Of a stretch of DNA of 64,000 bases, positions 34,546-43,683 are shown piece by piece; positions within the stretch are counted from its first letter, which is position 1; every line of letters starts with the position of its first letter. Below the pieces are notes generated by a model. The model saw nothing but the letters and a program-made list of their open reading frames with translations. It did no database searches and had not been told where the DNA came from. Origin of the DNA: Salinibacter pepae (GTDB taxonomy: Bacteria; Bacteroidota; Rhodothermia; Rhodothermales; Salinibacteraceae); NCBI RefSeq assembly GCF_947077775.1, contig NZ_CAMTTE010000001.1, forward strand, positions 1,826,501 to 1,890,500, written 5' to 3'. The translations under genes and the position numbers were made by a program.

Positions 34546-37236
34546 TTAGGCGTCAACGGCCGCGGCCCCGTCCCCGCCGGTCGCGGCGGCGTCGGCGGCC
34601 TGCTCAGCCCCCGCCGGTGCCACGGCCTCGAACGTGAGGCCCTCCTCCTCGTCGGCCCGCTCGATGCGGACGGTGTTGCCGTCCACGATCGTGCCGTCGA
34701 GCAGCGCCTGCGAGAGGCCGTTCGACACGTGCCGCTTCATCACGCGCTTCAGCGGGCGGGCGCCGAAGGCCGGGTCGTAGCCCCGGTCGGCAAGCCAGTC
34801 CTTCGCGTCGTCGCTGAGCGTGAGCGTCAGGTCGTGGTTCTTCGCGGCGATCCGCTGGACGCGTCCGAACTGGATCTCGACGATCTCGCGGATGTGCTCG
34901 CGGCTGAGCGAGCGGAACATCACGATGTCGTCGATGCGGTTCAGGAACTCCGGCTTCACCTGGCGCCGCAGCATCTTGAGGACCTCTTCCTCCAGCTCCT
35001 GATGCTCGCGCTCCGAGAGGTACCCGCCCTCCACCTCGTCCATCCGCTCCGAGATCACGTCGGAGCCCATGTTCGAGGTCATGATGATGATCGTATTCGT
35101 GAAGTCGACCGTGCGCCCCTGGTTGTCGGTGAGGCGCCCGTCGTCGAGCACCTGCAGGAGGACGTTGAAGATCTCGGGGTGCGCCTTCTCGATCTCGTCG
35201 AGCAGCACCACGGAGTAGGGGGAGCGGCGGACCGCCTCGGTGAGCTGGCCCCCCTCCTCGTAGCCGACGTAGCCGGGGGCCGCGCCGATAAGGCGGCTGG
35301 CCGTGTGGCGCTCCTGGTATTCGCTCATGTCGATGCGCACCATCGCGTCCTCGTCGTCGAAGAGGAACGTGGCGAGCGTCTTCGCGAGCTCCGTCTTGCC
35401 GACGCCGGTGGTGCCGAGGAAGATGAACGAGCCGATCGGCTGGTCGCCCTCCTGCATGCCGGTGCGGCCGCGGCGGACGGCGTTGGAGACCACCTCGATG
35501 GCCTCGTCCTGCCCCACCACACGTTCCGACAGCTCGTCCTCCATGCGCAGGAGCTTCGCGCGCTCGCTCTCCAGCATCTTCGACACCGGAATGCCGGTCC
35601 AGTTGGAGACGATCTCGGCGATGTCCTCGCCGCCGACCTCCTCTTTCAGCAGCGCGCCGTCCTCCTGGATCTCTTCGAGCTTCTGGTTGGCCGCCTCGGC
35701 CTCCGCCTTCAGGTCCGGAATCTCGCCGTACTGAATTTCGGCGACCGCGTCGTACTTGCCCTCCCGCTCCAGGTGTTCGGCCTTCACGCGGAGCTCGTCG
35801 ATGCGCTCCTTCGCCGAGCGGACCGTCTGAATCAGGTCCTTCTCCTCCGTCCAGCGGGCCTTCAGCGCGTCGCGCTCGTCCTCGAGGTCAGCGATCTGTC
35901 GGTCGATCTCGTCGAGCTTCTCGGCCGGGTCCCCCTCGTCGCGCTTCACGGCCTCGCGCTCAATTTCGAGCTGCCGGATCTCGCGCTCCAGCTGGTCGAG
36001 GTCGGCGGGCATCGAGTCGATCTCCATGCGCAGCCGGGCGGCCGACTCGTCGATCAGGTCGATCGCCTTGTCCGGCAGCTGCCGGTCGGTGATGTAGCGC
36101 TCGCTGAGATCGGCGGCGTTGATGAGGGCGCTGTCGTTGATGCGCACGCCGTGGTGCACCTCGTAGCGCTCCTTGAGGCCGCGCAGGATCGAGACCGTGT
36201 CCTCCACACTCGGCTCCTCCACGAGCACCTTCTGGAAGCGGCGCTCCAGGGCCCGGTCGTCCTCGATGTGCTTGCGGAACTCGTCGAGCGTGGTCGCGCC
36301 GATGGCGCGCAGCTCGCCGCGGGCAAGGGCGGGCTTCAGAATGTTGGCCGCGTCCATGGCGCCCTCGGACGCGCCGGCGCCCACGAGCGTGTGCAACTCG
36401 TCGATGAAGAGGACGATCTCGCCGTCGGACGCGGCCACCTCGTTGACGACCGCCTTGAGCCGGTCCTCAAACTCGCCGCGGTACTTGGAGCCGGCCAGCA
36501 GCGCGCCCATGTCGAGCGCCACGATGCGCTTCGACTGCATCGACTCCGGCACGTCGCCCTGCACGATGCGCGTGGCGATGCCCTCCGCGATGGCCGTCTT
36601 GCCGACGCCGGCCTCGCCGACGAGCACCGGGTTGTTCTTCGTGCGCCGGCTCAGGATCTGGAGCACGCGGCGGATCTCCTGCTCGCGCCCGATCACGGGG
36701 TCGATGTCGCCCTCGCGGGCCATCGCGTTCAGGTCCTGGGCAAACCGGTCGAGCGCCTCGTAGCGACTCTCGGCGTGGGGGTCGTCGGCGCCCTGCCCGC
36801 CGCGCACGTCGTCGAGCGCCTCCATCACGTGCTCCTTCGAGGCGCCCTGGTCGCGCAGGGCCTGCCCGATCTCGTTCTGGCCCTCGACGAGGCCGATGAG
36901 GAGGTGCTCGGTCGAGACGTACTCGTCGTCCATCACGTCCGCCTCGGCGCGGGCCCGGTCGAACACCTTCTTCAGCTCCTCGCCGACGTACTGGTCGCCG
37001 GCACTCGCGCCCGTCACCGTGGGCAGCGACTCCAGGGCCGCCTCAACATCGGTGCGGAGGCGATCGAGGCTCACGCCCACGCGCCGCAGGATCGACACGG
37101 CCACGCTGTCGGGGTCGCTCAAAAAGGCCTCCAGCAGGTGCGGGGGCTCGATGCCCTGGTGGTTCTTGGAGGCCGCCAGCTCCATCGCCTTCTGCACGGC
37201 CTCCTGGGCCTTGACGGTAAATTTTTGCAGGTTCAT
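34546..37236 (-). CDS. clpB: ClpB disaggregase chaperone
   Basis: ClpB is a hexameric AAA+ ATPase that works with DnaK to rescue aggregated proteins. The 896-aa protein has the N domain (1-150; [20 protein letters not shown]), AAA1 (~175-400; Walker [14 protein letters not shown]), a middle coiled-coil domain (~410-535), AAA2 (~560-770; [15 protein letters not shown]), and a C-terminal domain. A ~40-residue Ala/Asp-rich tail makes it longer than the usual ~860 aa. The start at 37236 (MNLQKF) matches the family; the frame from 37440 does not. No CIRCE operator is visible upstream, so control may be by an alternative sigma factor. Confidence 0.96.
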
Positions 37237-37396
37237 AGGTCCATCTTGGGGCTGGTCAAACGGCAACGGGAGTGCGGCGTGGCCCTCGGCCCAAGCGGGC
37301 GTCCCTGGACGAGCCTCCACGCTATGCATCCCGTGGAATAGACGAAAAGTGTACCAGCCGGCAGTGATCTGACAGGATGACAGAGAGTTGTTGGAT

Positions 37397-37442
37397 CCGT
37401 GATGCGTGAAGCATGAGGAGGAAAAAACGTCACGCATCACGG
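37397..37442. repeat. Palindromic intergenic repeat, family A, copy 2
   Basis: CCGTGATGCGTGA (37397-37409) pairs perfectly over 13 bp with TCACGCATCACGG (37430-37442). The 20-nt loop contains TGAGGAG, as does copy 1 at 1595-1636. Confidence 0.8.
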
Positions 37443-37566
37443 TTCACGCTTCTGCCAGTGTGCGGAGCGTTCTGCCATCCCGCAATATCCCCACTCAATT
37501 CGTGCCGCGTTTCCTTCCAGCCCGGAACCAATGACGCGCTGCGTTATTATCATATTTGCAGTGTCT

Positions 37567-37585
37567 CACACATTGCAATTGTGTG
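37567..37585. promoter_or_regulatory. Dyad operator candidate upstream of the phasin gene
   Basis: CACACA (37567-37572) and TGTGTG (37580-37585) flank a TTGCAA core. The dyad lies about 40 bases before the phasin start. It could be a repressor site; PhaR-type regulators of phasins favour TGCA-containing sequences, but no such regulator is visible here. Confidence 0.35.
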
Positions 37586-37625
37586 TTCTTCGCAGGCCCC
37601 TCCATCAACGAGTTGACGGACTGCC

Positions 37626-38285
37626 ATGACGGCCACAAACGACGAGACGCCCACGAACGACCGGAAAGGCTTCTCCCTGACGACGCTGCCCGACGAGGTA
37701 TCGGGACGGGCGCGCGAGATTTGGCTCGCCGGCCTCGGGGCGCTGGAGCGGCTCGAACAGGAAGGCGACAAGGTGTTTGAGACGCTCGTTGAGCGCGGCC
37801 GGAACTACGAAGACGCGCGCCGCGACCAGATCGAAAAGGCCACTGAGACCGTCCGCGAGCAGCAGGAAACCCTTACCGAAGACGTGACCCGGCGGCTCGA
37901 CGACGCCACGCAGTCGGTGGAGCAGGCCGTCTCGGACACCCTCAGCGGCACGCTTGGCCAGCTCGGGTTGGCCAGCCGCAGTGAGGTGCGCAACCTGTCT
38001 CGGCGCGTGGGGGAGCTGTCGAAAAAGCTGGACGCCCTCTCGGAGATGCTCACCGCCCAGCAGACGGCCGTCGAGCCCCGTGTCTTTCACGTCGCGCCTA
38101 GCGACGACGGGTGGAGCATCACGGTGGAGGGGGAGGAGGCCCCTGTCGGCGCCCACGACACGAAAAAGGCGGCCGTCAGCACGGCCCGCACCACGGCCAA
38201 GGAGCAGGCGCCCAGCCAACTCGTCGTCCACAAGCAGGACCGCTCGGTGCAGGAGAGCTTCTCCTACGAGGCGGACGGGGCGTAG
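37626..38285 (+). CDS. Phasin-like protein fused to a DUF2188-like domain
   Basis: A 219-aa protein. Residues ~15-145 are a helical phasin region (EVSGRAREIWLAGLGALERLEQEGDKVFETLVERG), which in other bacteria coats polyhydroxyalkanoate granules. Residues ~150-215 read RVFHVAPSDDGWSITVEGEE then HDTKKAAVSTARTTAKEQAP, the pattern of DUF2188 (~60 aa, function unknown). Their union in one chain is uncommon as far as I know. No PHA synthase lies in this window. ATG 37626 is the first start after an AT-rich promoter-like region, and a terminator follows 34 bases downstream, so it is monocistronic. Confidence 0.8.
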   Translation: MTATNDETPTNDRKGFSLTTLPDEVSGRAREIWLAGLGALERLEQEGDKVFETLVERGRNYEDARRDQIEKATETVREQQETLTEDVTRRLDDATQSVEQAVSDTLSGTLGQLGLASRSEVRNLSRRVGELSKKLDALSEMLTAQQTAVEPRVFHVAPSDDGWSITVEGEEAPVGAHDTKKAAVSTARTTAKEQAPSQLVVHKQDRSVQESFSYEADGA

Positions 38286-38319
38286 CCTTCGGTTCGGCCT
38301 GACCATCCCGTACGGCACG

Positions 38320-38355
38320 AAAGCGGCCATCCCTCCAGGGTCGGCCGCTTTTTTA
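38320..38355 (+). terminator. Intrinsic terminator of the phasin gene
   Basis: AAAGCGGCC (38320-38328) pairs with GGCCGCTTT (38343-38351) around 14 bases, followed by a T-run to about 38354. The A-rich upstream flank may make it bidirectional. Confidence 0.85.
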
Positions 38356-38408
38356 TACGTGTCTCCGCCGCCACACCGCTCAATGCCATCGACGCGTCCC
38401 CCCGCCTC

Positions 38409-38774
38409 ATGCACGCCGGAAGCCTCCGCGAGAAGCTGGAGCAGTTCGACGAACAGTGGGCGCCCCGCATCGTTGCGGCAGTGAACGACCAACACGTCAA
38501 GCTCGCCAGGCTGGAGGGGCCGTTCGACTGGCACCACCACGACGGCGCCGACGAGTTTTTTCTCGTCCTCCATGGGCGACTAGTGATCGAGTTTCGGGAC
38601 GCGGAGGATCGGCGGCTCAACGCGGGCGACTTTTGCGTCGTCCCGAGCGGCACCGACCACCGACCGGTCGCCCCCGAGGGGGAGGCGCACGTGCTCCTCG
38701 TGGAGCCCGCCGCCACCCGCAACACCGGGAATCTCGACACCGACCGCACGGTTGAGGATCCCGAATGGATTTGA
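38409..38774 (+). CDS. Small single-domain cupin
   Basis: The 121-aa protein has one cupin barrel. Motif 1 is WHHHDGADEFFLVLHGRLVI (metal-binding His triplet and Glu) and motif 2 is NAGDFCVVPSGTDHRPVAP. Such proteins bind a metal and may be isomerases or sugar/ligand-binding proteins; the substrate is unknown. A monocistronic position after a terminator is likely. Confidence 0.85.
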   Translation: MHAGSLREKLEQFDEQWAPRIVAAVNDQHVKLARLEGPFDWHHHDGADEFFLVLHGRLVIEFRDAEDRRLNAGDFCVVPSGTDHRPVAPEGEAHVLLVEPAATRNTGNLDTDRTVEDPEWI

Positions 38775-38899
38775 GCCGCCGGCTCGGGGCGGGGCGGACC
38801 GCCGGGAGCGGCCCCGCGAGGCGCGCGCCGCCGCGTCTCCTCCACCGAGGGCAACGCGTTTTTCTTTTCCAGTTTCTTTTCCAGAGCGCCCGCCTCCTC

Positions 38900-39370
38900 A
38901 TGATCCACCAGGACGTGCTCATGCGGCAGATCCGCCAGTTCACGAAGGCGATCGCCACGCTGCTGGGCCAGTCGTCCCGCGAACAGCCCGACGGCCTGCT
39001 GCAGGGGATCGATGAGGCCTGCCGCACCCACCTCGACGGGCGGGCCGAGGACCTGCGCACGCTGCCGCCCGACGCGCTGCTGGAGCTGTGCCACGAGAAC
39101 GACCGGTTTGTGCCGGACGTGGCCCAGACCCTCGCCCGCGCCCTCCACCGGATGGGCGAAACCTACGAGTACCGGGACGACGCCGAGAAGGCCGGGGGCT
39201 GCTTCGCCCGGTCCCTCCTCCTCTACCGCCACCTCCTCCACGACCCGGACGCCCCGGTCTCCTGGCAGGCCGGCACGACCGTCGCCGCGCTGTCGAAACG
39301 GGTCGACGCGTTGCCCGTCGACGACGCCACCCTGGAGGCGCTGGCGGCGCTGCGGAACGGCGCGGAGTAA
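38900..39370 (+). CDS. DUF6483-like helical protein
   Basis: A 156-aa, mostly helical soluble protein starting MIHQDVLMRQIRQFTKAIAT, which is typical of the DUF6483 family of unknown function. The second half (ARALHRMGETYEYRDDAEKA) resembles a TPR-like helical hairpin. ATG 38900 is chosen because the family begins with this motif; the 45 upstream in-frame residues are Arg/Phe-rich and not protein-like. Confidence 0.75.
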   Translation: MIHQDVLMRQIRQFTKAIATLLGQSSREQPDGLLQGIDEACRTHLDGRAEDLRTLPPDALLELCHENDRFVPDVAQTLARALHRMGETYEYRDDAEKAGGCFARSLLLYRHLLHDPDAPVSWQAGTTVAALSKRVDALPVDDATLEALAALRNGAE

Positions 39371-39452
39371 GGCGTCACAGCCAGAACGGGAAAGAATCGG
39401 AGACGCCGTCGTACGAAGTGCACGTCAACTATTGGTCACCACCGAAATAGTC

Positions 39453-39725
39453 ATGCCTGATGACACCGCAGAACTCGCTGAACGCGCCAACGAAATCTTC
39501 GACCGCGTGATACGTCCGCAGGTCGACGTGGAGGAAGACGCCCAAAAGTACGTCGCCATCGACACCGAATCGGAAGACTTCGAAATCGACGCCGACCAGC
39601 GGGCCGCGTCGGATCGTCTGCTCGAACGCCATCCGGAAGCCCGAGGCCGCATCTTCTTTCGCCGCGTCGGCAGTCCCTACGCCCATTACTTCGGGGGAGG
39701 ACTGCGGGAGGAGCGCGGTAAATGA
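39453..39725 (+). CDS. Partner protein of the retropepsin-like protease
   Basis: A 90-aa acidic protein. Visible segments are ANEIFDRVIRPQV, KYVAIDTESEDFEIDADQRA (a YVAID...G/D-YEID type strand pair) and FFRRVGSPYAHYFGGG at the end. I recall similar small proteins encoded immediately before clan AA proteases in cyanobacteria and others, but the function is not known to me. Its stop overlaps the next start by four bases (ATGA, 39722-39725), so the two products are made together. A toxin-antitoxin-like or protease-plus-substrate/chaperone arrangement is possible. Confidence 0.7.
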   Translation: MPDDTAELAERANEIFDRVIRPQVDVEEDAQKYVAIDTESEDFEIDADQRAASDRLLERHPEARGRIFFRRVGSPYAHYFGGGLREERGK

Positions 39726-40099
39726 CCACCGGCTTCATCACCCCCGACCAGGAGCCCGCTCTGCGACTGGAGGTTGTCGGCCCGGAGGGGGCCCGTTCGT
39801 TCGAGGCGATCATCGATACCGGCTTCAATGGCGGTCTCGCCATTCCTCCAGCGTGGATCGAGGCCCTCGGTCTGCCCCGAGCTGGACACGAACAGATGGT
39901 GCTGGCGGACGGAAGCGTCACCGGCGCCTACCTGTACGACGGCTACGTGCTTCTCGATGAGGAGGCCCACGATGTCGTTGTGACCGAAGCGCCGGGAACG
40001 CCCCTTGCCGGGACGGACCTTCTCTGGGGATTCTCCCTCTGTATTGAGTTCCAGGTTGATGGGAGCGTCGAAGTCGACCCACTGCCGTCCCCTTCCTGA
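39722..40099 (+). CDS. Clan AA retropepsin-like aspartic protease
   Basis: A 125-aa single-lobe aspartic protease. The catalytic motif is EAIIDTGFNGGLAIPPAW (DTG near residue 33), followed by LADGSVTGAYLYDGYV flap strands and the second hydrophobic strand GTDLLWGFSLCIEF. Single-lobe enzymes work as dimers, as retroviral proteases do. There is no signal peptide, so it acts in the cytoplasm. It overlaps the preceding small gene by four bases and is probably its functional partner. The target is unknown. Confidence 0.8.
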   Translation: MTTGFITPDQEPALRLEVVGPEGARSFEAIIDTGFNGGLAIPPAWIEALGLPRAGHEQMVLADGSVTGAYLYDGYVLLDEEAHDVVVTEAPGTPLAGTDLLWGFSLCIEFQVDGSVEVDPLPSPS

Positions 40100-40278
40100 A
40101 GGACCGTTCAGCGCAAAGTCGAGACATCTTCCGGGACCTGTGTCGCGCATTCATGTCTCCTCTCACAGGACTCTGACGCCCCGATGTTGTGGCAGGTGGG
40201 CACCCACTGTCGCGGCGCTCGCGGAGCGATCCGATCCTGTTCGTAGCATCAAAGAAGAATTGAGGACCGGTCGACTGG

Positions 40279-40722
40279 TCAGATGTCTTGAGAATTGAGA
40301 TTCTCAATGATGTCTTCGGGGTCTGATATCTGGTGAATTTCCTCTTCTAAAGTTTCGCCATCGCTTTCCGAGAGAAAGAACAGTGCCAGGAACAAAGCGA
40401 AGAGAGCTGTTGCTATCGCGTTTCCTGTCGTCGCTATCTCCATCGTCGGATCTACTACTGGTCTCAAGACCACTCCGAGAGAGGTTGAGGCTAAGACTCC
40501 ATATATTTTTCTCCACTTGCTGAGCTGCCGGATTGATGTGATTGCTGCTTTCGAGGGCCGCCCTTTATCCAAGAGATACTGTATTTCAAGTGTAGTCAGT
40601 GCATATCCAAGCCGTCCAGGAACCTCTGTGCTCCCAGTTTCGGGATCAAAGGATAGAGGAATGCTTGGATCTCGATCTCCTTCCCCGCTGTCAGTGGGAT
40701 GGTTTGACTGTTCGGTAACCAC
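40279..40722 (-). CDS. Unrecognised small membrane protein of a low-GC islet
   Basis: A 147-aa product starting at GTG. It has a cytoplasmic-looking N-terminus (EVPGRLGYALTTLEIQYLLD), then two hydrophobic segments (~73-90 and ~97-117; ATALFALFLALFFLSES), and an acidic tail. I recognise no family. Base composition is clearly poorer in G+C than neighbouring genes and codon use is unlike theirs (many ATA, TCT, AAG), suggesting recent acquisition. It follows 40772-41110 on the same strand after 49 bases; the start codon lies in a perfect 16-bp palindrome. Confidence 0.6.
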   Translation of the reverse strand: MVTEQSNHPTDSGEGDRDPSIPLSFDPETGSTEVPGRLGYALTTLEIQYLLDKGRPSKAAITSIRQLSKWRKIYGVLASTSLGVVLRPVVDPTMEIATTGNAIATALFALFLALFFLSESDGETLEEEIHQISDPEDIIENLNSQDI

Positions 40723-40733
40723 TGCGCAGTGGT
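40718..40733. promoter_or_regulatory. Perfect 16-bp palindrome over the start of the islet membrane protein
   Basis: ACCACTGCGCAGTGGT is a perfect palindrome at 40718-40733 and includes the GTG start codon at 40720-40722 (minus strand). It could be an operator or an mRNA hairpin hiding the start. Confidence 0.5.
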
Positions 40734-40771
40734 GAGTCTTGTCGCCTTATCTCGGAGTGAGTGTGGTATAA

Positions 40772-41110
40772 CTAACTGTTTTCGGTTTCGAATGCTATTT
40801 CCCTCTCTTCCCGCAACACTTTCGTGTTGGCAATCTCCTCAGAGAATAAAATTTCCTCCAGGCTATCGGATGGTCGTTCCTGGCCGTCAACAGTTACCTT
40901 CCAGAACGAGGAGTCGAACTCGTCTAGGTCAATAGAATTGGGTTTGGGACCAGCATTTACCCGAAATACCAAGAGGTTCTCCCCTGTCCCCACACGTTGG
41001 TAGGTCACGAGGAACCTGTCTTGAGAGATACGGACCACCTTCACTTTGAGGGTTTCGTCTTCGTAGGGAACTACAGTATCTCCGACGGAGATGTCAGCCT
41101 GTTCCATCAT
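40772..41110 (-). CDS. Unrecognised small soluble protein of a low-GC islet
   Basis: A 112-aa product. The N-terminal half (ISVGDTVVPYEDETLKVKVV) looks like a small beta-barrel (SH3/KOW-like pattern by eye), and the C-terminal half is acidic and helical (SDSLEEILFSEEIANTKVLR). I recognise no family. It shares the low G+C and atypical codons of the next gene and probably heads a two-gene operon. An inverted repeat lies about 34 bases upstream of its start. Confidence 0.55.
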   Translation of the reverse strand: MMEQADISVGDTVVPYEDETLKVKVVRISQDRFLVTYQRVGTGENLLVFRVNAGPKPNSIDLDEFDSSFWKVTVDGQERPSDSLEEILFSEEIANTKVLREEREIAFETENS

Positions 41111-41143
41111 TTCCTGGGCCGTCTAGAGGTTGAATTTATGTGC

Positions 41144-41163
41144 TACGGTGGAAAATTACCGTA
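41144..41163. promoter_or_regulatory. Inverted repeat upstream of the islet operon
   Basis: TACGGT (41144-41149) and ACCGTA (41158-41163) flank an AT-rich 8-nt spacer just upstream of the minus-strand gene starting at 41110. Position and spacing fit an operator. Confidence 0.35.
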
Positions 41164-41232
41164 CGATTTTACTTCCAGCGTTGTTGGCTCACTAACGCAT
41201 TAACTTCGGTCGAGACCTGCACACTCCTACAT

Positions 41233-43026
41233 TCACCCCTCCACCGCACTCGGCGCCCGAAACTGATACGACGCGAGGCGCCGATAGAGCCCGCCTGCCT
41301 CCATCAGCTCCGCATGCGTGCCGCGCTGCACGATGCGGCCGTCGTCGAGCACGAAGAGGCGGTCGGCCGTCTGGACGGTGGAGAGGCGATGCGCGATGAT
41401 GAACGTGGTGCGCCCCTCCATGAGCCGCTCCAGGGCCTCCTGCACGAGCGCCTCCGAGGCGGAGTCGAGGGACGAGGTGGCCTCGTCCAAGAGCAGCAGG
41501 CGCGCGTCGCGCAGCAGGGCCCGGGCGATGGCGACGCGCTGGCGCTGCCCCCCACTCAGCTTCACGCCCCGCTCGCCCACCTCGGCGTCGTAGCCGTCGG
41601 GCAGGTCCACGATGAAGTCGTGCGCGTTGGCGGCGCGGGCCGCCTCGGCCACCGCCTCGTCGGACGCGTCGAGCCGCCCGTAGCGGATGTTCTCCCCGAT
41701 GGTGGCGTTGAAGAGGTGCACCTCCTGCGAGACGGACGCGATCTGGGCACGCAGGGACCGCCGCGTGACGCGGCGCAGGTCATGGTCGTCGACGCGGACA
41801 CGCCCCTCCTGGGGGGCGTAGAAGCGAGGGATCAGGCTCATGAGGGTCGACTTGCCCGCACCGCTCGGCCCCACGAGGGCGACCGTCTCGCCCGCCGCCA
41901 CGTCGAGCGAGAGGTCCTTGAGCACCGGCTGGCCCTCGTCGTAGGCGAAGGTCACGTCGTCGAGGCGCACCCGGCCGTCGATCGGGGGCAGGTCGACGGC
42001 GTCCGGGGCGTCGCGGAGGTGGGGCTCGGTGTCGAGCAGGTCGAACAGGCGCTCCGTGGCCCCCGCGGCGCTGTTAAACGTGGAGTAGAGCTGCGACATG
42101 CTGCTCACGCTCCGCGCGATGTTGAAGGCGTAAAACACGAACGCCACGAGGTCCCCCTCCGTGAGCCGCCCAGCCAGCACCTCGATGCCGCCGTACCAGA
42201 AGATCGCCACGAGGGCGGCGAAGAAGAGCAGCCCCACCGTCGACTCGAACAGGGCCGTCACGACCACGCGGTAGCGCGCCGTGCCGAAGAGGTCCTCCAC
42301 CGCCTCGTTGTAGCGGTCCACCTCGTAGTCGGACCGCGCAAACGCCTTGACGACGCGGACGGACGCAAGGGCCTCCTCCGCCACGGCCGTCGTGTCGGCC
42401 AGCCGGTCCTGGATGTCGCGGGCGAGCGTCCGAATCTTGCGCCCGAAGTAGATCGCAAACCCGGTGACGGCCGGCACGATGAGGAAGATGATGAGGCTGA
42501 GGCGCCAGTTGAGCACCACCATGAGCGCCACCGACCCCACCAGCGAGAGCGACTGGGTCAGGAAGTTGGGAAGCGCGTCCGTCACCGCGCTCCGCACCGA
42601 GCCTACGTCGTTGGTGAGACGCGAGGTGAGGTCGCCCGTCCGGCGGTCGGTAAAGAACCGCAGGCTCTGCCGGTGGAGGTGCCGGTACACCTTCTTGCGC
42701 AGGTCCGCAACCACGCGCTCGCCGGTCCACCCCAGCAGGTACTTGCCCCCAAAGGCCGCCGCGGAGCGGGCCAGGAAGAGGCCGATCAGCACCAGGGTGA
42801 GAAGGTCGAGCAGGGCCCGGTTCTCTTGCTGAAAGACTGCGTCTACGAGCTCGCGCAGGCCCAGCGGCACGACGAGCGCCACCGCCGCCCCCACCACGGT
42901 GAGCACCACGGCCCCGACGAGGCGGGCCCGGTAGGGCCACCCGAGGCGAAGGATGCGCCGGAGGGACGTCCACAGCCGCTCGGGGCGGAGCGACGGCTCT
43001 TCGGACGTGGACTCGGACTCCGGCAT
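41233..43026 (-). CDS. ABC exporter half-transporter, MsbA-like
   Basis: The 597-aa protein has a six-helix membrane domain (~35-335) fused to an ATPase (~355-597): Walker A LVGPSGAGKSTLMS, Q-loop region QIASVSQEVHLFNATI, signature [17 protein letters not shown], Walker B LLLLDEATSSLD and H-loop IAHRLSTV. It works as a homodimer exporting lipids, peptides or drugs; MsbA/BmrA-type relatives are the closest in layout. MPESESTSEEP at 43026 is chosen as the start; the frame continues far upstream without meaning. Confidence 0.92.
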   Translation of the reverse strand: MPESESTSEEPSLRPERLWTSLRRILRLGWPYRARLVGAVVLTVVGAAVALVVPLGLRELVDAVFQQENRALLDLLTLVLIGLFLARSAAAFGGKYLLGWTGERVVADLRKKVYRHLHRQSLRFFTDRRTGDLTSRLTNDVGSVRSAVTDALPNFLTQSLSLVGSVALMVVLNWRLSLIIFLIVPAVTGFAIYFGRKIRTLARDIQDRLADTTAVAEEALASVRVVKAFARSDYEVDRYNEAVEDLFGTARYRVVVTALFESTVGLLFFAALVAIFWYGGIEVLAGRLTEGDLVAFVFYAFNIARSVSSMSQLYSTFNSAAGATERLFDLLDTEPHLRDAPDAVDLPPIDGRVRLDDVTFAYDEGQPVLKDLSLDVAAGETVALVGPSGAGKSTLMSLIPRFYAPQEGRVRVDDHDLRRVTRRSLRAQIASVSQEVHLFNATIGENIRYGRLDASDEAVAEAARAANAHDFIVDLPDGYDAEVGERGVKLSGGQRQRVAIARALLRDARLLLLDEATSSLDSASEALVQEALERLMEGRTTFIIAHRLSTVQTADRLFVLDDGRIVQRGTHAELMEAGGLYRRLASYQFRAPSAVEG

Positions 43027-43284
43027 GGGCGATGCGGACGGCGTTTTGATCGTACGTGTCGGACTCAGTGAGTCAACCTTTTCTGCGACGGCAGGGATTC
43101 GCGGGGGGCGTTCTCGTTTGGGAAAAAGACGCCAAACCAGTTGCCTAGCGCCGCGAATGGAGGCAGGTCGGCGCCCTGACTCGTTTCTCCAAACGGCCCC
43201 TCGACTGTGAAGCTGTGCGCAACAACCACGGGGCGTGCGTGTGCAAAGGCCAGGCTCGTGTCCCCCGCCCACTACCGCCCCCCC

Positions 43285-43683
43285 ATGCGCTTCCCTACGC
43301 CATTTGTCTTGCTTCTCCTCGCGGTCGGACTCCTCGGGGCCTGTGCCACCGCCGGCGGCGCCCTGTTCGACGACGGCCGCGGGTCGTACGTCCAGGAAAA
43401 CGCGCTGTCGGGCAAAGACAGCGTCCACGTGATGGAGGGCCGCATCTACCGCGGCATGCCGATCGACCACGCGCTGGCGGCCCTGGGGCCGCCCGCCAGC
43501 CAAGACACGACGACGGCCGACGGCGAGACGCGCGTCGAGTACGTGTACCGGTCCCGCCCCAATGCCTTCGACCCCGGCAACGTCCCCCGGGCGTACGTCT
43601 ACGCGGAGGAGCAGACAGTGACCGACTGGACGGGCCTCGACCGGATCCCCCGCTTCGACGCGTACTACGAGGGCGGGATGTAG
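43285..43683 (+). CDS. Small lipoprotein, possibly BamE/SmpA-like
   Basis: A 132-aa product with a lipoprotein signal (FVLLLLAVGLLGACAT, Cys ~20). The mature part, GRIYRGMPIDHALAALGPPA then VEYVYRSR and a YVYAEEQTVTDWTGL hairpin, follows the strand-helix-strand pattern of BamE-like folds (G-M-x-x-x-x-V/A-x-x-x-LG-x-P). Identification is by pattern only. ATG 43285 starts the signal; the upstream in-frame sequence is not signal-like. It ends 20 bases from the convergent DUF5686 gene. Confidence 0.6.
   Translation: MRFPTPFVLLLLAVGLLGACATAGGALFDDGRGSYVQENALSGKDSVHVMEGRIYRGMPIDHALAALGPPASQDTTTADGETRVEYVYRSRPNAFDPGNVPRAYVYAEEQTVTDWTGLDRIPRFDAYYEGGM

Follow-up and report, generated by a model that had tools for sequence, protein, structure and literature searches.

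A small gene coupled to a DTGF-type retropepsin-like protease in Salinibacter pepae: a candidate toxin–antitoxin-like module

The gene pair and its accessory segment

Two overlapping genes, here named A and B, lie within an accessory segment of the window, the whole stretch of 64,000 nucleotides from Salinibacter pepae that was analysed. The features are given with their positions in the window.

39370-41248, no strand: accessory segment (1.88 kb) that contains both genes and a low-GC stretch; absent from three congeners
39453-39725, + strand: gene A, partner protein of 90 aa
39706-39713, + strand: GGGAGGAG, possible ribosome site for B, upstream of its ATG
39722-39725, + strand: ATGA overlap of stop and start, with the TGA of A at 39723-39725 and the ATG of B at 39722-39724
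39722-40099, + strand: gene B, predicted single-lobe retropepsin-like protease of clan AA, DTGF type, 125 aa
39815-39826, + strand: catalytic D-T-G-F of B, residues 32-35; IIDTGF spans 39809-39826
40004-40012, + strand: L-A-G motif of B, residues 95-97
40279-40722, - strand: low-GC open reading frame of 147 aa inside the 1.88-kb segment, no family above its cut-off
40772-41110, - strand: low-GC open reading frame of 112 aa inside the 1.88-kb segment, no family match at E 0.01

The preliminary description had reported two open reading frames coupled by a four-base overlap, and both are present, with ATGA joining the stop of A to the start of B. The best relatives of A reached at most 77% identity over 83 residues, those of B at most 52% over the full length and 57% over 82 residues. 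Since relatives of both proteins were found and the pair recurs in three phyla, as detailed below, the arrangement is more than chance.

The stretch of low G+C content near the pair (about 49%, in surroundings of mostly 63-73%) had been taken as a sign of an accessory region. The islet is real, and A, B and the islet form one accessory segment. The congener G003 aligns to positions 37001-39369 and 41249-43681 of the window (94-95%), G004 and G007 align to nearly the same stretches, and between these flanks the three genomes have 25, 49 and 34 bases, respectively, instead of the 1.88-kb segment. As both flanks are kept in all three congeners, positions 39370-41248 represent a single segment that is present here and absent there. 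The empty site was located via the neighbouring cupin gene, which was matched in six of the 13 genomes of the genus: the own genome, G003, G004 and G007, together with G008 and G001, in which the alignment covers part of the cupin gene only. No target-site duplication was found at the segment ends, only 7-base repeats at chance level.

Outside the segment, a phasin-like protein with a C-terminal DUF2188 domain is encoded at 37626-38285 (+), beside a long open reading frame at 34546-37440 (-) that by eye resembles ClpB. At another locus (L009, G003:C1), the congener G003 carries an intact A together with a truncated B with the motif DTVF.

Protein B is related to clan AA aspartic proteases

Many bacteria possess retropepsin-like proteases, most of which have no known role. 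The earlier assignment of B as a single-lobe aspartic protease with an intact DTG motif was confirmed at the level of sequence: B contains IIDTGF and L-A-G, the latter being the second retropepsin hallmark, and matches the NCBIfam model TIGR03698 'clan AA aspartic protease' (E 1.7e-9). The score of 38 bits lies below the curated cut-off of 57.35, and by its sequence B is classed as a relative of TIGR03698, not as a member. The Pfam family Asp_protease_2 matched B weakly. In an alignment of 14 B sequences (A7), D-T-G-F and L-x-G are invariant, and all 14 members matched TIGR03698 (E 0.01 or better). When a 14-sequence B profile was compared with solved structures, the ApRick protease (5c9b, 5c9d; E 5e-6) and the retropepsin DDI1 (E 2e-3) were found as relatives at the sequence level. 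We know of no coupled partner gene of A's type for either of these enzymes. A structure model of B built from two sequences had a pLDDT of 38, and PADLOC returned nothing convincing for B, the only hit being AbiEii (E 0.033). Since B has one lobe with only one catalytic Asp, it is probably a homodimer.

B has the DTG and hydrophobic-Gly motifs of the clan AA proteases of TIGR03698 (COG5550 type) and is predicted to belong to their fold family. The matches to TIGR03698 and to the B profile include proteases without A; in contrast, the A-linked branch is a distinct DTGF subset. Little is known about prokaryotic single-domain members of the clan, according to a clan AA survey (PMC2642776). Among the studied bacterial enzymes that we found, the RloA proteases of Pseudomonas aeruginosa, which are secreted, come nearest; they are retropepsin-like enzymes with a demonstrated physiological role (PMC12239564). 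RloA proteases have N-terminal signal peptides, and the gene of one of them shares an operon with genes for an ATP-grasp and a transglutaminase-like protein (PMC12239564), whereas direct reading of the B sequence revealed no evident signal peptide, and B is coupled to A.

Protein A: a predicted fold without a convincing structural match, and no uniform charge

Protein A yielded no match in Pfam, NCBIfam or PADLOC at E 1. The best of five structure models, calculated from two input sequences, had a pLDDT of 79 and a pTM of 0.70 (pLDDT of the five models from 79 down to 44) and predicts an N-terminal helix followed by beta-beta-alpha-beta-beta. A comparison with known folds gave nothing convincing in Foldseek (best E 2.3), and FdhD, the best VIA-align result (Z 3.9 over 74 residues, 3.9 A rmsd), was not convincing either. 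With respect to DNA-binding domains, no family was matched in Pfam or NCBIfam and the fold searches produced weak hits only. A resemblance of A to DUF5678 was rejected: no match to this family (PF18929) was listed among 22 A members, and none was found in the own genome, in a search of little weight whose controls also gave no match.

Classical type II toxin–antitoxin pairs tend to combine a basic toxin with an acidic antitoxin. The first protein of the pair had been described as acidic, but this did not prove to be a trait of the family: across the 23 intact pairs, the pI of the profile-matched part of A ranged from 4.6 to 9.6 and exceeded that of B in 21 pairs, while the corresponding part of B was acidic in all 23 (pI 4.1-5.4). 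Given this range, acidity of A as an antitoxin hallmark was rejected. In contrast to the type II tendency, the uniformly acidic partner is B. That the A of the window is acidic is probably a consequence of an acid-rich proteome, and both proteins of the window pair seem halophile-like.

In the loci examined, full-length B genes of the DTGF branch are preceded by A

Linkage was counted starting from B, with matches at E <=1e-3, duplicates removed by shared B sequence and A sought within about 700 bases upstream; a B was regarded as full length when its match extended from model position 26 or lower to 104 or higher. Among 57 non-redundant full-length B, A was present upstream of all 23 of the DTGF type and of none of the 34 of other types. 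In the larger set of 83 non-redundant B matches, A preceded each of the 31 with DTGF or DTGY (23 full length, eight not) and also five B fragments without the motif. With A present at every DTGF or DTGY locus and at none of the 34 others, the link to A belongs to one branch of the protease family. Of the 23 intact pairs, which include plasmid and chromosomal ones, 15 have a four-base overlap (ATGA or GTGA) at the junction; in the other eight the two genes either overlap further or are separated by a few bases.

Searches in defined sets of genomes gave the following distribution. In single searches of 100 related genomes, the own genome included, B was found in eight and A in 11; each of the ten B places was immediately preceded by A in the same orientation, although a contig end truncates one of these A copies. 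In 297 genomes of Acidobacteriota, profile A7 detected 34 B places in 29 genomes. The loci were read for 30 of these, and A was located upstream of B in six of six DTGF/DTGY loci versus none of 24 others, mostly DTGA or DSGA (Fisher p 1.7e-6). Profile A2 applied to the 297 acidobacterial genomes revealed ten A places in seven genomes, accompanied by an intact B (three), a broken B or a trace of it (five), a DUF433 gene (one) or nothing recognisable (one). In the window's own phylum, TIGR03698 was matched in 36 of 296 genomes and A, with profile A2, in five of 296; 15 TIGR03698 loci read by eye had no A-like open reading frame upstream, whereas three further loci from this search, in G000, G003 and G328, have A. 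In the phylum of G367, profile A8 had no match in 299 genomes, a set without positive control. The earlier statement that similar pairs occur in other phyla was substantiated: Acidobacteriota and plasmids of cyanobacteria have the two genes in the same order as the window's own phylum.

These counts bear on the possibility that A and B are ordinary accessory genes, a housekeeping-type clan AA protease following a small open reading frame with no functional link. Such an arrangement would fit the 34 full-length clan AA proteases of other motif types, all of which stand without A. It is at odds with the contrast of 23/23 to 0/34, with its acidobacterial counterpart of 6/6 to 0/24 at the p value given above, with the same gene order across three phyla and with the matched divergence of the two proteins (Mantel r 0.91). 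The linkage data largely refute the absence of a functional link, which we consider highly improbable.

A persists without B

A second count started from A, with matches at E <=1e-5 and duplicates removed by shared A sequence. By its design this count cannot show B without A, and its set of 23 pairs may differ slightly from the 23 of the B-started count. A was taken as intact when its match began no later than position 12 of the 88-position model and reached at least position 72; for B, the match had to begin no later than position 25 of 128, reach at least position 104 and include D[TS]G. The 54 non-redundant A loci comprised 23 with both genes intact, 23 with an intact A but no intact B, and eight with a non-intact A.

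In 17 of the 23 loci that lack an intact B, a broken, truncated or fused B was recognised; some of these traces span only a few codons beyond the junction, and that of L077 is the weakest. The remaining ones are L019, which lies at a contig end, L014 and L070, with DUF433 instead of B, and L025, L072 and L151, with no clear trace of B, the A of L072 having an internal stop. A start at the four-base junction was retained in 15 of the 22 loci read for this purpose, and in 12 of these the frame is B-like by eye. One such locus without B is in the own genome, where a second A (L025, G000:C1:2443099-2443350; 68% identical) is followed by neither B nor a recognisable trace of it. The eight non-intact A were found at L006 (contig end), L028 (two pieces of one frameshifted A), L051, L081, L083 (two) and L097; at L051 a near-whole B is paired with a shorter A. 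At L005 (G011:C101), the B sequence ends beyond the catalytic region, and its frame reads through into what by eye resembles the C-terminus of a tyrosine recombinase.

The preliminary description had named frequent separation of the two genes, together with a protease harmless on its own, as evidence against its toxin–antitoxin reading. The genes are indeed often apart in one direction, with A lacking an intact B at 23 of 54 loci, but not in the other, as B of the full-length DTGF type was found without A in none of 23 cases. A toxin that is lost before its antitoxin would leave this one-way pattern, and so would other dependences of B on A.

The distances among A and among B sequences were closely matched (Mantel r 0.91 for the 23 pairs, 0.90 for the 12 first-branch pairs). 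Such co-divergence is expected of a unit that is inherited together, and the shared descent of the hosts contributes to it. Two Gloeothece plasmids, both without B, match each other downstream of A (95% over 1.7 kb), so that the loss of B probably dates back to their ancestor. The comparison of their A genes gave a dN of 0.018 and a dS of 0.181 (dN/dS 0.10), and selection on A thus probably continues in the absence of B. For a loss of more recent date, L087 (B lost) compared with L157 (B kept), dN/dS of A was 0.38 and less clear, so that purifying selection on A after loss of B is clear in one case only. A binomial test of L090 versus L091 gave p 7e-5 with an assumed non-synonymous share of 0.79 and serves only as a guide, as does the chance estimate for the one-way loss, in which loci were treated as independent.

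DUF433 was encountered repeatedly next to A. In G008 (L014, G008:C96), A is fused in frame to a DUF433 domain (PF04255, E 1e-22), and a frameshifted frame matching DUF5615 (E 1.5e-15) follows; a DUF433 gene lies after A in L070 and after a broken B in G025. For A and 21 aligned relatives no match to PF04255 was listed (E limit 10, HMMER filters on). Judged by sequence, A itself is not DUF433, and only the fused or neighbouring domains match PF04255. DUF433 corresponds to COG2442, described by Makarova et al. (2009, PMC2701414) as a predicted antitoxin family associated with PIN domains. The PIN-COG2442 (DUF433/DUF5615) pairs likewise have a small first gene and an enzyme as the second, and A occurs beside or fused to DUF433. 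They differ from A-B in that their enzyme is a PIN nuclease, whereas B is a protease and A has no convincing Pfam match.

Copies on plasmids and their neighbourhood

A of the first branch was found in nine plasmid records, all cyanobacterial. The A and B frames were read in six of them, and in three B adjoins A according to match coordinates or the gene table; on the Oscillatoria plasmid, B breaks off within the catalytic motif. A second, more divergent branch contributed A in 27 plasmid records and B in 23, with both in 22. Plasmid records with B also had A in 22 of 23 cases in the second branch and in nine of 11 in the first, and the three exceptions (L092, L093, L094) hold B fragments only. 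Conversely, A is whole in all five second-branch records without a match to B; four of these have a junction frame of 16-36 aa with at most the first codons of B.

ParA, resolvase-like recombinases and toxin–antitoxin genes are the usual company of plasmid-maintenance genes. We read 19 distinct plasmid loci of the second branch. In seven of them the pair adjoins ParA or ParB (Pfam recognised one of these), and in nine the stretch read contains a site-specific recombinase near the pair. ParD, RelE/ParE, PIN or BREX genes occur near other copies, and RelE/ParE, ParD and PIN near first-branch copies. On plasmid pNSMS101 of Nostoc sp. MS1 (L060), the pair is situated inside a BREX cluster, between pglX and pglZ on the opposite strand. 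Two Nostoc plasmids (L094 and L063) have similar neighbourhoods with a helicase, RelE, a DUF1156 gene and a PIN gene; one carries an intact pair and the other only a C-terminal B fragment.

The BREX cluster, the toxin–antitoxin genes near the pair on other plasmids and a B fragment adjoining hsdR in L092 could indicate a module for phage defence or plasmid competition, in which B would be activated upon invasion and A would act as sensor or restrainer; a retained A could then protect against related incoming modules. PADLOC, however, gave no convincing match, and the second-branch plasmid loci display partition genes beside the pair (7/19) and recombinases near it (9/19). Moreover, a search of phage records with a single acidobacterial A as query detected no relative, and no viral carrier was found in IMG/VR contigs with A1 or A3 as query. 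We judge a defence function improbable.

Discussion

The layout of the pair, a small protein first and a coupled enzyme second, had been likened to that of toxin–antitoxin systems, and the present analysis supports this. A and B share several features with type II systems: they are two small coupled genes, they form one mobile module (overlap, empty sites, plasmid copies), and the candidate toxin gene is not kept without its partner, as none of the 23 full-length DTGF-type B examined stands without A. In our estimate, the chances are about even that A-B is a mobile toxin–antitoxin-like module of the addiction or maintenance type, with B as effector or toxin and A as the restraining partner. 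B would act as a cytoplasmic retropepsin-like protease. A would be made first and B translationally coupled to it, and B would not be tolerated without A, which most simply may bind B and restrain it. When such a module decays, B would be lost first and an orphan A could persist. In the simplest reading, B would be harmful or useless without A, and A harmless alone. We disfavour the reverse assignment, with A as toxin and B as antitoxin, since whole copies of A survive where B is absent.

If A served B as substrate, chaperone or adaptor, B would show the same one-way dependence, and where A persists without B it may have an independent function. A may accordingly be cleaved by B, or deliver it, in a coupled regulatory pair devoid of toxicity, with A as the effector or regulator and B as its processing enzyme. 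The coupling, the dependence of B on A and the matched divergence fit a substrate or adaptor equally well, and both the selection on A without B in Gloeothece and the A-DUF433 fusion look as if A had its own function. On its own, such a relationship leaves the patchy, plasmid-borne, accessory distribution and the frequent loss of B alone unexplained. We hold it to be a somewhat unlikely yet serious alternative to a toxin–antitoxin-like module.

A more specific version of the toxin–antitoxin-like module is tentative and, taken as a whole, rather unlikely. The toxin would resemble the HIV protease: B would pair with itself to form the active site, A would block this pairing, for example by capping the dimer interface, and loss of the module would free B to cleave essential proteins. 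Orphan copies of A would then confer anti-addiction immunity against B-carrying plasmids.

In the open-access literature searched, with subscription journals mostly outside its coverage, no combination of a retropepsin or aspartic protease with a toxin–antitoxin or plasmid addiction pair was found. The available text of Makarova et al. (2009, PMC2701414) does not contain 'aspartic', 'aspartyl' or 'pepsin', and that of an inventory of Synechocystis toxin–antitoxin systems (PMC4963859) contains neither 'aspartic' nor 'aspartyl'.

The conserved partner that the DTGF branch seems to need offers a direct way into a role of bacterial retropepsin-like proteases. Should B prove to be a toxin, the toxin–antitoxin toxins known to us would gain a proteolytic enzyme of the aspartic type, and A could represent a naturally occurring, genetically encoded retropepsin inhibitor.
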